Shown piece after piece: positions 28,140 to 31,512 of a stretch of DNA of 64,000 nucleotides; the stretch's first letter is position 1; every line of letters begins with the position of its first letter. Below the pieces are notes generated by a model. That model saw nothing but the letters and a program-made list of their open reading frames with translations, was not told where the DNA came from and ran no database searches. Position numbers and translations under genes: made by a program. Source of the stretch: Sulfitobacter sp. EhC04 (GTDB lineage Bacteria; Pseudomonadota; Alphaproteobacteria; Rhodobacterales; Rhodobacteraceae); NCBI RefSeq assembly GCF_001650875.1, contig NZ_LXYI01000089.1, positions 124,001-188,000 on the forward strand. The letters are read 5' to 3'.

Positions 28140-29150
28140 ATGGCGCGTATGAAGGAAATTCTGACGGTTGCAGGGACGCTTGCCTGCGCCATCGGCATCG
28201 GCTTTGTCATGCAGAACTCCGATGCGGCCAAGGCAAGATACGGCAAGCACGAAACACCCGCGCCCAAAGAGCTGGAAGAGACCGCAACCAGTGCCCTGCT
28301 CGATGTCCAGCAGATCAAGCTGACCTCGGGCGAGTTCAAGGTTGCCGATGACCTGCCTGCAACACCAGCCATTTCGGCGTCGGAACCCGATGCGACTGTC
28401 ATCAAGGTACGCGCCCCGCAAAGCGTTCTTGAAGGTCCGCCGGCACCAGGGTCCGCGGCCCCTGCTTCCGCCTGTGCCATCACCGCCGAAGCCCGCGCCA
28501 TGGCTGCGGCCATGGTCGATTTGCGGCTGGACGCGGTCTGCTTGCCAAATGAACGCGTCACCGTGCATCACAACGGCATGATCTTTACCGAAACCACGGA
28601 TGCAAACGGTAAACTGAACACCACCGTTCCCGCCCTGGCGCGCGACGCCATGTTCATTCTGGCTTTCGGTAACGGGGATGGTGCGGTGGCGCAGACCCAG
28701 GTTGATGAACTGGTCGACTATGACCGTGCCCTGGTGCAGTGGAAAGGCAATGCCGGTTTCGAAATCCATGCCCGTGAATTCGGGGCAAACTACGGCGATG
28801 CCGGTCACCACTGGAAAGATGCACCCGGCGCAGTGGCCGATGCCGTGATTGGGCGCAGCGGCGTTCTGACCCGGCATGGGGATGCCGCAGCGGCAGATCC
28901 GTTGCTGGCCGAGGTCTATACCTTTCCCAGGGCCGAGTCTGAGCAGGTCGGCACTATTGCGCTCAGTGTTGAAGCAGAGGTCACCAAAGCCAATTGCGGC
29001 GTCGAGGCAGAGGCGCAATCGCTTCAACTGATGAACGACGGGCAGATCAAATCACAGGACCTGATACTGTCTGTTCCGGAATGCGATGCGGTTGGCAGCT
29101 TTCTGGTGTTGAATAATCTGCTTCAAGACCTGAAAGTCGCGGGAAAGTAA
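28140..29150 (+). CDS. Membrane-anchored or secreted protein of unknown function (336 aa)
   Basis: No function is known to me. The N-terminus MARMKEILTVAGTLACAIGIGFVMQ is an uncleaved signal or a membrane anchor. A low-complexity linker rich in Pro, Ala and Glu follows (about 30-110). The remaining 220 residues look globular and contain four cysteines placed as two possible disulfides, C119/C136 and two near the end. A polysaccharide- or carboxypeptidase-like segment (NERVTVHHNGMIFTETTD) is not diagnostic. Relatives in this bacterial group are, I believe, labelled translocase only because they follow secA. GGAGG nine bases upstream supports ATG 28140. Confidence 0.65.
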   Translation: MARMKEILTVAGTLACAIGIGFVMQNSDAAKARYGKHETPAPKELEETATSALLDVQQIKLTSGEFKVADDLPATPAISASEPDATVIKVRAPQSVLEGPPAPGSAAPASACAITAEARAMAAAMVDLRLDAVCLPNERVTVHHNGMIFTETTDANGKLNTTVPALARDAMFILAFGNGDGAVAQTQVDELVDYDRALVQWKGNAGFEIHAREFGANYGDAGHHWKDAPGAVADAVIGRSGVLTRHGDAAAADPLLAEVYTFPRAESEQVGTIALSVEAEVTKANCGVEAEAQSLQLMNDGQIKSQDLILSVPECDAVGSFLVLNNLLQDLKVAGK

Positions 29151-29169
29151 AACCGCACTCAGAGGTCCC

Positions 29170-30732
29170 ATGATCTTGCTTAGATGTGCGGCGTTTATCG
29201 CCGCACTTTTTCTTTTCTGGCACCATCCGGCCGCCGCGCAGGATGTGGCCCTGACCTCGCGCGATGGCAAGGTTGAACTGAGCGGCACGCTGCTGGGGTT
29301 CGACGGGGAATTTTACCGCGTCCAGACTGAATACGGCGAGTTGACGATAGACGGCTCGGGCGTGCTCTGCGCCGGGCCCGGCTGCCCCAACCTGGAAGAC
29401 TTCGTGGCCGAGGTACAATTGTCAGGCTCCGCCACGATGGGCGCGGTTCTGATGCCGGCGCTGATTGACGCCTATGGCCAGCGAGCGGACTACCTCGTTA
29501 CCCGCGAAGATGGCGAGGACCCGACCCGGTTCACCTACCTGTTGTCGCGCCGGGATACGGGCAAGCTTGCCGCTCAGTTCCATTTCCGCGCAACCAACAC
29601 CGACGAGGGGTTTGCCGATCTTTTGGCGGATGAGGCCGATATCGTCATGGCCCTGCGCGAGATCGGGCGCGAGGAACGCATCAATGCGCGCGAGGCCGGG
29701 ATGGGCGATCTGACCGGCGCGAACCGCAGCCGGGTTCTGGCCCTGGACGCGGTGGTGCCGGTTGTAGCTCCGACCAATCCCTTGCGGGCGATTTCCCCGC
29801 TGATGCTTGCCCGCGCCTTCTCGGGGGAAGTGACCAATTGGCAAGAGCTTGGCGGGCCCGATGCGCCAATCGAATTGCATCTGCCCAGCCCCTCCAGCGG
29901 GTTGAGTCAGGCGATTGTCGATCAGGTCATGAAACCGGCAGGTATGACCCTGACCGATACGATTGTGTGGCATGCCCTGCCTGAAAACCTGGCAAAGGCT
30001 GTGGCCGACGACAGCCTGTCGCTGGGCATCACCAGCTATGCCGAACAGCGCGACACGATGGTGCTGACCCTGGGCGGCACCTGCGGCTTTGCGCTGAACG
30101 CGGCACGGCGGACGATCAAGACGGAGGATTATCCGCTGACGGCCCCCATGTTCCTGTATTTTCCGGCGCGTCGCCTGCCCCTGATCGCGCGAGAGTTTCT
30201 GGCCTTTACGCGGGGCCCGGCGGCGCAGAACGTGATCCGGCGCGCGGGGTTCGTGGACCAGGCACCGGAGGAAATCCCGGTCGAACAGCAGGGTAACCGG
30301 TTCACCAATGCCATCTCCGTGGCGGGCGAGGAAATTTCGCTTCAGGAATTGCAGCGGATGACTGCGACACTGCAACCGATGGCCCGGTTGACCACCTCTT
30401 TCCGGTTCGAGGCAGGGTCGATCCGTCTGGATGCGCAAAGCCGGTCAAACGTGCAGCAATTGGCGCGGGCGCTGGAGCAGGGGCAATACGACGCGCGGCG
30501 GATGCTGTTTGTCGGCTTTAGCGACGGGCAGGGGGCCGCAACGCCGAACCGCGATATTGCGCTGCGTCGGGCAGAGGCGGTGCTGCGCGCAGTGTCTGCC
30601 GCCGCTGTCACGGCCAACCTGGAACGTGTTGACCTGGGGGTGGATGCCTTTGGCGAGGCGATGCCGATGGCCTGTGACGATACCGCATGGGGTCGGCAGG
30701 CAAACCGGCGGGTAGAGGTCTGGGTGCGGTGA
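29170..30732 (+). CDS. PstS-like substrate-binding domain fused to OmpA-like domain
   Basis: This 520-residue exported protein begins with a signal peptide (about 1-24, ending PAAAQ). A periplasmic binding domain of the PstS type follows (QLSGSATMGAVLMPALIDAYG, then ADIVMALREIGREE, FSGEVTNWQELGG and GLSQAIVDQVM). The C-terminal 100 residues are OmpA/MotB-like (FRFEAGSIRLDAQSR, FVGFSDGQGAATPNRDIALRRAEAVL). It may thus sense a ligand and bind peptidoglycan at the same time. No phosphate transporter genes are nearby, so ligand and partner are unknown. A full intrinsic terminator is built from its signal-peptide codons. Confidence 0.82.
   Translation: MILLRCAAFIAALFLFWHHPAAAQDVALTSRDGKVELSGTLLGFDGEFYRVQTEYGELTIDGSGVLCAGPGCPNLEDFVAEVQLSGSATMGAVLMPALIDAYGQRADYLVTREDGEDPTRFTYLLSRRDTGKLAAQFHFRATNTDEGFADLLADEADIVMALREIGREERINAREAGMGDLTGANRSRVLALDAVVPVVAPTNPLRAISPLMLARAFSGEVTNWQELGGPDAPIELHLPSPSSGLSQAIVDQVMKPAGMTLTDTIVWHALPENLAKAVADDSLSLGITSYAEQRDTMVLTLGGTCGFALNAARRTIKTEDYPLTAPMFLYFPARRLPLIAREFLAFTRGPAAQNVIRRAGFVDQAPEEIPVEQQGNRFTNAISVAGEEISLQELQRMTATLQPMARLTTSFRFEAGSIRLDAQSRSNVQQLARALEQGQYDARRMLFVGFSDGQGAATPNRDIALRRAEAVLRAVSAAAVTANLERVDLGVDAFGEAMPMACDDTAWGRQANRRVEVWVR
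29186..29216 (+). terminator. Intrinsic terminator inside signal-peptide codons
   Basis: GTGCGGCG and CGCCGCAC form a perfect 8-bp stem around TTTAT, followed by TTTTTCTTTT. It lies 36 bases after the stop of the upstream gene and 16 bases inside the PstS/OmpA fusion gene, encoding the hydrophobic core CAAFIAALFLF. Confidence 0.8.
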
Positions 30733-30740
30733 TGTTCCCG

Positions 30741-30764
30741 GCATCCAAGATGCTGTTTTTCTTT
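30741..30764 (+). terminator. Intrinsic terminator after the PstS/OmpA fusion gene
   Basis: GCATC and GATGC pair around CAA and are followed by TGTTTTTCTTT. It lies between two convergent genes and touches the radC stop. Confidence 0.7.
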
Positions 30765-31512
30765 ATATATACCCTTCCGCGCGAAAACTGAGTTCGCTGG
30801 ATTTTCCGATGATCAGGTGATCGTGCAGGGTGAGCCCAAGCGCATCGCACGCTGTCGAGATCTGGTTGGTCATGTCGATGTCCGAGCGCGACGGCGTCGG
30901 GTCGCCCGATGGATGGTTGTGCACGAGGATCAAGGCGGAAGCATTGAGTTCCAGCGCCCGCTTGGCAACCTCGCGGGGATAGACGGGCACGTGATCCACG
31001 GTCCCTTTCGCCTGTTCCTCATCCGCGATCAGAACATTCTTGCGATCCATATAGAGCACGCGAAACTGCTCGGTCTCGCGGTGGGCCATGGTGGTGTGGC
31101 AATAGTCCAGCAGCGCATCCCAACTGGAAACAACCTGTTGTTTCAAAACCTTGGCGCGGGCAAGGCGCTGGGCTGCCGCCTCGACGATCTTCAGTTCGGT
31201 GATCACGGCGTCACCAATACCCGACAGGTCGCGCAGCCGCGCCTCAGAGGCGGAGACAACGCGGTTGAAGTCGCCGAAACGGTCCATCAGGGCATGTGCC
31301 AGCGGTTTGACATCGCGGCGCGGGATGGCGCGGAACAGGACCAGTTCCAGAAGCTCATAGTCCGGCATGGCAGCGGGGCCACCGGCCATGAACCGCGCGC
31401 GCAGGCGCTGGCGGTGATCCTTGATATAAGAAGGCTGCCTGCCCGTCACCGGGGCGGTTTCTGGTGCCTCGTCCAGCAAGTAGGGCAGGGGCTGTTCGTT
31501 GAATTGGTCCAT
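30763..31512 (-). CDS. radC: RadC family JAB/MPN protein
   Basis: This 249-residue protein has an N-terminal helix-hairpin-helix region (LRDLSGIGDAVITELK) and a C-terminal JAB1/MPN-like domain with the metal motif HNHPSGDPTPSRSDID (about 195-210). RadC was named for a repair defect that is now disputed; the true substrate is unknown. It stands alone in a minus-strand block, with an operator-like inverted repeat 65 bases upstream of its start. The start ATG 31512 gives a normal-length protein. Confidence 0.92.
   Translation of the reverse strand: MDQFNEQPLPYLLDEAPETAPVTGRQPSYIKDHRQRLRARFMAGGPAAMPDYELLELVLFRAIPRRDVKPLAHALMDRFGDFNRVVSASEARLRDLSGIGDAVITELKIVEAAAQRLARAKVLKQQVVSSWDALLDYCHTTMAHRETEQFRVLYMDRKNVLIADEEQAKGTVDHVPVYPREVAKRALELNASALILVHNHPSGDPTPSRSDIDMTNQISTACDALGLTLHDHLIIGKSSELSFRAEGYI

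Follow-up and report, generated by a model that had tools for sequence, protein, structure and literature searches.

A conserved terminator-like hairpin in signal-peptide codons as candidate start-proximal attenuator of a PstS-like/OmpA gene in Rhodobacteraceae

Background

The attenuator in the leader of the Escherichia coli ampC gene combines an own promoter, a short leader and an intrinsic terminator and serves growth-rate control. A ribosome at a start codon in the nascent ampC leader prevents formation of the hairpin. In leader-peptide attenuators of the trp, his and pyrBI type, translation of the nascent RNA decides whether the terminator is formed. According to the available excerpts of the published reports, ribosomes can prevent intrinsic terminator hairpins (PMC5021804), and the mapped intrinsic terminators of Zymomonas, an alphaproteobacterium, resemble those of E. 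coli (PMC7566282). For the Rhodobacterales, the SAM/SAH riboswitch is the only element named in the available part of a survey of structured RNAs (PMC2864571). Terminators inside genes are easily dismissed, be it as false positives or because ribosomes are assumed to suppress them. Here we describe a terminator-like hairpin within the first codons of a gene for a secreted protein and compare it with these systems. The window is the whole stretch of 64,000 nucleotides that was analysed, and all coordinates refer to it.

Methods

Orthologs were collected in two surveys, one of 118 related genomes, 84 of which had a match at E ≤ 0.001, and one of an even draw of 395 genomes from the family with a completeness of 90 % or more, 277 of which had a match at E ≤ 1e-60. 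The sample of 193 loci comprises 30 and 27 loci taken directly from the two surveys, 36 fetched loci and 100 of 120 further listed matches; from the remaining 20, three were already in the sample and 17 lay outside it. Beyond the matches listed, the 395-genome survey was covered for 30 genomes with weaker homologs. One locus was duplicated, thus 192 are distinct. 183 loci were taken as having the upstream gene. The best matches in the 30 genomes with weaker homologs (31–48 % identity), picked by hand among the matches of both surveys, form a separate set of distant homologs, in which L302 repeats L066.

The loose criterion for a terminator asked for a stem of six or more uninterrupted pairs, four or more of them G-C, beginning 4–23 nt downstream of the alignment anchor (the ATG or a position near it), and for four or more T in the 9 nt after the stem. 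Stem distances were counted from the closest start codon in frame; GTG or TTG was accepted if there was no ATG nearby. Promoter-like elements were sought in the 130 bp before the anchor with a TTGAAA-like first hexamer and a second hexamer carrying A at position 2 and T at position 6, at a spacing of 16–18. Codons and base pairing were analysed in 180 of 193 loci, after exclusion of 13 that did not match the N-terminal motif. As double change we counted a standard pair, G-U included, that was altered on both sides.

Results and discussion

The locus and its hairpin

The following features were assigned:

28140 to 29150, plus strand: upstream ORF, the neighbour in most loci; its last codons hold the promoter-like element
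29109 to 29114, plus strand: -35-like element TTGAAT, in the 3'-terminal part of the upstream ORF
29132 to 29137, plus strand: -10-like element GAAAGT, 17 bp after the -35-like element
29144 to 29214, plus strand: predicted terminated RNA of about 70 nt, with an estimated start 7 nt downstream of the -10 element and its end within the U tract
29161 to 29165, plus strand: Shine-Dalgarno-like AGAGG, from the sequence
29170 to 30732, plus strand: gene for a secreted PstS-like (PBP_like_2) and OmpA protein of 520 amino acids, from ORF and Pfam
29186 to 29206, plus strand: predicted terminator hairpin with 5' arm 29186–29193, loop 29194–29198 and 3' arm 29199–29206
29207 to 29216, plus strand: U tract TTTTTCTTTT, in Leu-Phe-Leu-Phe codons

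The 520-amino-acid protein matches PF12849 (2.5e-17) and PF00691 (1.8e-9); its closest named relative among the matches listed, from which records of the own genome were possibly excluded, is a protein of Sulfitobacter sp. DFL-14 (97 % identity). The upstream ORF at 28140–29150 gave no Pfam match. The ORF preceding it is presumably SecA, and the genes further out we take to be ArgJ, a PpiC-type isomerase, RadC, DnaJ and DnaK. A second terminator-like hairpin with TTTTTCTTTA lies at 30739–30765, right after the stop codon of the PstS-like/OmpA gene, and is probably the ordinary end of this gene; opposite to it, on the other strand, is a presumably radC-like gene.

The hairpin inside the gene, GTGCGGCG-TTTAT-CGCCGCAC, consists of eight perfect pairs, seven G-C and one T-A, with a loop of 5 nt, and nine of the ten nucleotides directly 3' of the stem are T; both are features of intrinsic terminators. 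Hairpin and flanks fold with -16.3 kcal/mol (z -4.5), which none of 200 dinucleotide shuffles reached. Within 14 kb, 26 terminator-like sites were counted against a shuffle mean of 13.2, and the hairpin at 29186–29206 had the highest number of G-C pairs in its stem among the 26. It lies within the codons for C-A-A-F-I-A-A-L of the signal peptide, begins 16 bases downstream of the A of the ATG at 29170 and is separated by 36 bases from the last base of the upstream stop codon (29148–29150). The initial annotation had claimed a perfect 8-bp GC stem at this distance inside the gene, in the signal-peptide code and 36 bases behind the upstream gene; placement, distances and perfect pairing were confirmed, only the pure GC composition has to be corrected for the T-A pair. 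A start codon 3' of the hairpin was considered by eye and rejected because the signal peptide needs a start ahead of the hairpin.

A strict terminator scan of the 369-kb contig of the window yielded 34 terminators, nine of them inside crudely called ORFs. Two of these nine were at most 60 nt from the called start, the signal-peptide hairpin and another in the first codons of an ORF that, by eye, is apparently miscalled. The stem pattern, with up to three mismatches, had no second occurrence in the own genome and its match on the reverse strand was the identical palindrome, thus a repeat family was rejected. A known RNA family was rejected as well, since no Rfam family reached its gathering score between 27900 and 31600; the match over the hairpin scored 18.8 against 58.7 bits.

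Conservation among orthologs

Under the loose criterion, an in-ORF terminator was present in 185 of 192 distinct ortholog loci. Within the genus it was found in 60 of 61 loci, so that loss of the stem in close relatives, which the initial annotation had named as an argument against the element, was not seen; the sole genus locus outside this count, L039, carries one A-C mismatch in the stem. An ortholog above paralog level was absent from the genus genome G056. Altogether seven of the 192 loci keep the protein without an unbroken hairpin (L039, L062, L129, L143, L171, L178, L182). At least 6 T in the next 9 nt followed the stem in 165 of the 185 loci with hairpin, and the median hairpin energy of the 180 aligned loci was -16.4 kcal/mol. 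The stem started 13 nt (96 loci) or 16 nt (59 loci) downstream of the A of the start codon, among 183 loci for which a start could be assigned. L124 has an extra codon in the loop, the stem is intact.

Two orthologs have a disturbed reading frame behind an intact hairpin. In L148 a TGA breaks the frame and the rest of the protein continues in another frame, by frameshift or assembly error. In L063 (genome G038) hairpin and T tract are intact, and the ortholog is split into two adjoining matches in different frames (residues 4–260 and 255–520), hence the gene looks broken.

The distant homologs were evenly divided: an in-ORF terminator was present in 15 of 30, and such a hairpin was absent from the other 15. 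Among the former is L314, whose unrelated stem precedes TTTTT. A promoter-like match was present in 4 of the 15 without the hairpin (L301, L308, L315, L324), and several others of these are probably paralogs.

A promoter-like element in the tail of the upstream gene

The promoter scan picked a spacing of 17 bp in 193 of 193 loci and the exact motif TTGAA-N17-GANNNT in 187 of 193 (186 of 192 distinct loci), a uniformity that is partly built in because TTGAA and, in the second hexamer, A at position 2 and T at position 6 add to the score of the scan; P-values for the motif are only descriptive because it was defined after the loci had been seen. The picks are in register, since the Pro and Cys codons 11 and 9 codons upstream showed no variation in any of the 183 loci taken as having the upstream gene. 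In all of these, Leu in the -35 element was encoded by TTG, while nearby Leu codons varied, e.g., fourteen codons upstream with CTG (70), CTC (36), CTT (24) and TTG (16). Further codons with little variation were noticed around 29098–29130 of the window: the Phe codon three before the -35 codon was TTT in 166 of 167 cases, and the Gln/Glu codon in the promoter spacer ended with A in 124 of 125. An activator site or another element may overlap the promoter here.

A consensus promoter scanner did not list the element at 29109–29137. The alphaproteobacterial sigma-70 promoters described in the available part of one study keep the -35 TTG and mostly lack the T at -7 (PMC8407463). The element at 29132–29137 has the T at its last position and a G rather than a T at its first, which leaves the sigma factor uncertain. 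From the usual spacing between -10 element and start, transcription would begin at a median of about 28 nt upstream of the ATG, and at 26 nt in the window. The hairpin would then begin about 42 nt downstream of the estimated start.

The upstream gene ends 16–26 nt before the anchor in 173 of 193 loci. This distance is typical, and no other strong terminator is located between both genes in the window, hence the hairpin could be the end-of-operon terminator of secA or the unknown gene, overlapped by the next start, with the downstream gene living on read-through. We consider this unlikely in view of the loci without the upstream gene. In L143, L145, L157, L161, L173, L182 and L190, from seven genera, a SecA-like C-terminal motif is located at most 200 nt from the ATG, so that the upstream gene is gone, and L180 lacks it in yet another context. 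All eight carry the exact TTGAA-N17-GANNNT motif, which occurred in 0.02–0.22 % of 5000 shuffles per region, a descriptive figure, while only 10–25 of 45 positions beside the motif agree with the consensus derived from the coding loci. Six of the eight retain the hairpin, L180 and L145 in weak versions (6 bp; 4 T), and L143 and L182 have lost it. Moreover, L143 and L180 possess, by eye, an extra terminator-like hairpin between the gene upstream and the promoter-like element, which would be expected if transcripts from upstream required a separate end at this place, although L143 is among the loci whose in-ORF hairpin was lost. The promoter-like element and, in six of eight loci, the hairpin thus survive the loss of the upstream gene and cannot serve this gene only, and transcripts from a conserved promoter just upstream would meet the hairpin too. 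Because the promoter-like element lies about 60 bp before the ATG and is kept without the upstream gene, the own short transcript is the probable main target. The terminator-shaped element proposed at the outset stands, its assignment to transcripts of the upstream gene finds no support in that form; ending these may be an extra role.

Taken together, it is probable that the PstS-like/OmpA gene carries a promoter of its own together with an internal attenuator, yielding an RNA of about 70 nt. A small RNA gene would likewise consist of a promoter, a short body, a terminator hairpin and a U tail, and small RNAs derived from 5' regions are known in E. coli, as reported in the accessible part of PMC7815308. 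The RNA might accordingly have a job of its own, acting in trans or as a sponge, with the gene as read-through from it. This is quite improbable: the single-stranded part from the start to the hairpin is poorly conserved across the loci, where in an ungapped alignment anchored on the hairpin two G columns near the Shine-Dalgarno distance stand out, and the curated Rfam scores gave no family. The leader columns being low in information outside the ribosome site, no seed is visible and a trans-acting seed was rejected.

Selection on RNA versus protein

Four alanine codons are near-fixed, as GCG (165 of 168), GCG (166 of 176), GCC (168 of 175) and GCA (156 of 174), compared with GCG 40 %, GCC 38 %, GCA 14 % and GCT 8 % in the body of 30 of these genes. 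An arginine codon is CGT in 126 of 133 cases versus 19.5 % in the gene bodies. Over 8 pairs and 180 loci, 1418 of 1440 stem pairs are formed against a shuffle mean of 1387 and a maximum of 1393. Double changes amounted to 26 against a mean of 2.3 and a maximum of 8 in 1000 shuffles, counted as sequences and not as events, since neither counts nor shuffles consider relatedness. Twenty of the 26 fall within the three pairs that join third codon positions on both sides, three of these 20 belonging to L143 and L178, which are not counted as terminator loci. Stems of dissimilar sequence with kept pairing and T occur in L166, L173 and L186. When the first 28 codons were recoded synonymously, 7.7 % of the draws contained a strong hairpin followed by a T tract, compared with 161 of 192 loci; the loose criterion was reached by 35 % of the draws versus 185 of 192 loci, a high figure because the alanine codons repeat. 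Chance or protein constraint do not explain the hairpin, and strong selection on hairpin and T tract apart from the protein is supported by these comparisons; selection on the promoter-like element is likewise supported by comparison of the loci. The alignment of related genes proposed in the initial annotation thus came out in its favor: the stem is kept at synonymous sites, with near-fixed alanine codons and compensatory changes.

A selected hairpin could also control translation initiation or mRNA stability instead of transcription, the T run being a by-product of Leu-Phe codons. A stable hairpin 13–16 nt behind the AUG would hinder or pause ribosomes too, CTT makes up 35 % of the Leu codons in nine signal-peptide-like genes of the contig (26 codons), and L129, without a stem, keeps 6 T in 9. 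Nevertheless this is very improbable, as CTT encodes the first Leu after the stem in 147 of the 165 loci with Leu at this site, compared with 12.8 % of Leu codons in the bodies of 30 of the genes and 22 % of Leu in codons 5–16 of 319 crudely called contig genes. In addition, the T density is lower in five of the six stem-less loci (not counting L039): between +30 and +54, the 9-nt stretch richest in T has 3–6 T, with at most 5 T in all except L129, compared to at least 6 T in 172 of the 185 others. A perfect palindrome about 80 bp behind the promoter-like -35 element could bind a dimeric regulator as DNA operator, which is hardly credible, since an operator would preserve bases rather than pairing and the dissimilar stems of L166, L173, L186 and L314 keep pairing and T tract. 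Protein or codon bias alone, to which the loose hairpins among the recodings may be credited, has a negligible chance in view of the rarity of strong ones, adjacent alanine codons fixed to different synonyms and the third-third double changes.

Proposed attenuation mechanism

With moderate confidence, we regard the element in codons 6–16 as an intrinsic terminator and start-proximal attenuator of its own gene. Since the stop signal is kept in the family, partly via paired silent changes, the gene seems built to shorten many of its transcripts. RNA polymerase would start near 29144, copy a leader of about 26 nt and the first codons and meet the terminator after about 70 nt, where many transcripts may end. 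The transcript would continue if rapid loading at the AUG brings a ribosome onto the stem in time, such an early ribosome covering or melting the stem and letting the polymerase pass. By the size of the ribosome footprint, the first base of the stem presumably coincides roughly with the leading edge of an initiating ribosome. Transcripts from secA or the upstream gene would reach the same terminator. The output of the gene would be the product of promoter activity and the efficiency of early translation initiation.

Leader pairing with the 5' arm was no better than in shuffled sequences (mean z 0.015, n = 179 loci). An antiterminator in the leader, suggested by eye in some loci by a CGCA-like stretch, was rejected on account of this z of about 0. 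As the leader is poorly conserved and without antiterminator pairing, the ribosome is the simplest agent of antitermination, and ribosome-dependent escape appears as the most natural way to expression of the gene.

In E. coli, terminators in the first 100 bp of the coding region work, as far as the available part of PMC4824070 reports, which supports a real termination at the signal-peptide hairpin. In the same excerpt, the tR2 terminator 30 bp behind the AUG remained largely efficient, with a reduction of about 10 % by translation (PMC4824070). Ribosome loading may thus switch little, given that tR2 lost only this fraction. A weak ribosome effect would make the hairpin a constant damper, or would call for a pause or a factor.

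A more far-reaching interpretation is tentative and, on balance, we incline slightly against it: the last codons of the upstream protein would be a promoter and the signal-peptide codons a terminator, together a gate for ribosome availability, and the N-terminal R-A-A-x-x-A-A-L-F-L-F would be conserved for the RNA and not for the signal peptide. With such a gate, the mRNA would end if no ribosome has engaged by the time that about 70 nt are copied.

A conserved in-ORF terminator with compensatory silent changes offers a clean natural system for the race between the first ribosome and RNA polymerase. It suggests that a terminator and a promoter can fix signal-peptide codons and those in the tail of an upstream gene, a point of relevance to codon recoding, the annotation of start sites and the interpretation of 'conserved' N-termini. 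If true, a compact control unit within two protein genes is held across much of a bacterial family.

Comparison with known systems

Among the titles and text passages covered, a literature search found no comparable arrangement in print, and a search for Roseobacter transcript maps recognised none as covering the locus. The main text of a paper on Paracoccus small RNAs mentions neither OmpA nor SecA. The geometry agrees with the ampC type: in 155 of 183 loci, the first base of the stem is found 13 or 16 nt downstream of the start-codon A. As proposed here, the element would share with ampC an own promoter, a short leader, an intrinsic terminator and a ribosome at the start codon that prevents the hairpin. 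In ampC, ribosome site and terminator precede the gene in a leader, whereas the PstS-like/OmpA gene uses its own start and has the terminator within the coding sequence. With leader-peptide attenuators the element would share, again as proposed, that translation of the nascent RNA governs an intrinsic terminator. Unlike in the trp type, the start before the hairpin is that of the 520-amino-acid gene and not of a leader ORF, and a conserved antiterminator pairing is missing.

Three further reports, used as far as their text was available, come close in single aspects. The E. coli construct of PMC4824070 has, like the gene described here, a terminator close behind the AUG, which was shown to work in cells; those terminators were engineered, while the one in the PstS-like/OmpA gene is natural and conserved over many genera. 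RNA 3' ends in 5' UTRs and inside ORFs of E. coli, e.g., in ispU with a stem and eight U, likewise indicate premature early termination (PMC7815308), but were mapped experimentally, whereas termination is deduced here from conservation and lies inside signal-peptide code. The duf1127-1 gene of Sinorhizobium meliloti is also a case of alphaproteobacterial attenuation that depends on early translation (PMC12218461), with the difference that an upstream ORF and probably Rho are involved and translation favours termination (PMC12218461). Within this range of systems, the signal-peptide element probably works like a ribosome-sensitive attenuator that bears the sequence features of an intrinsic terminator.
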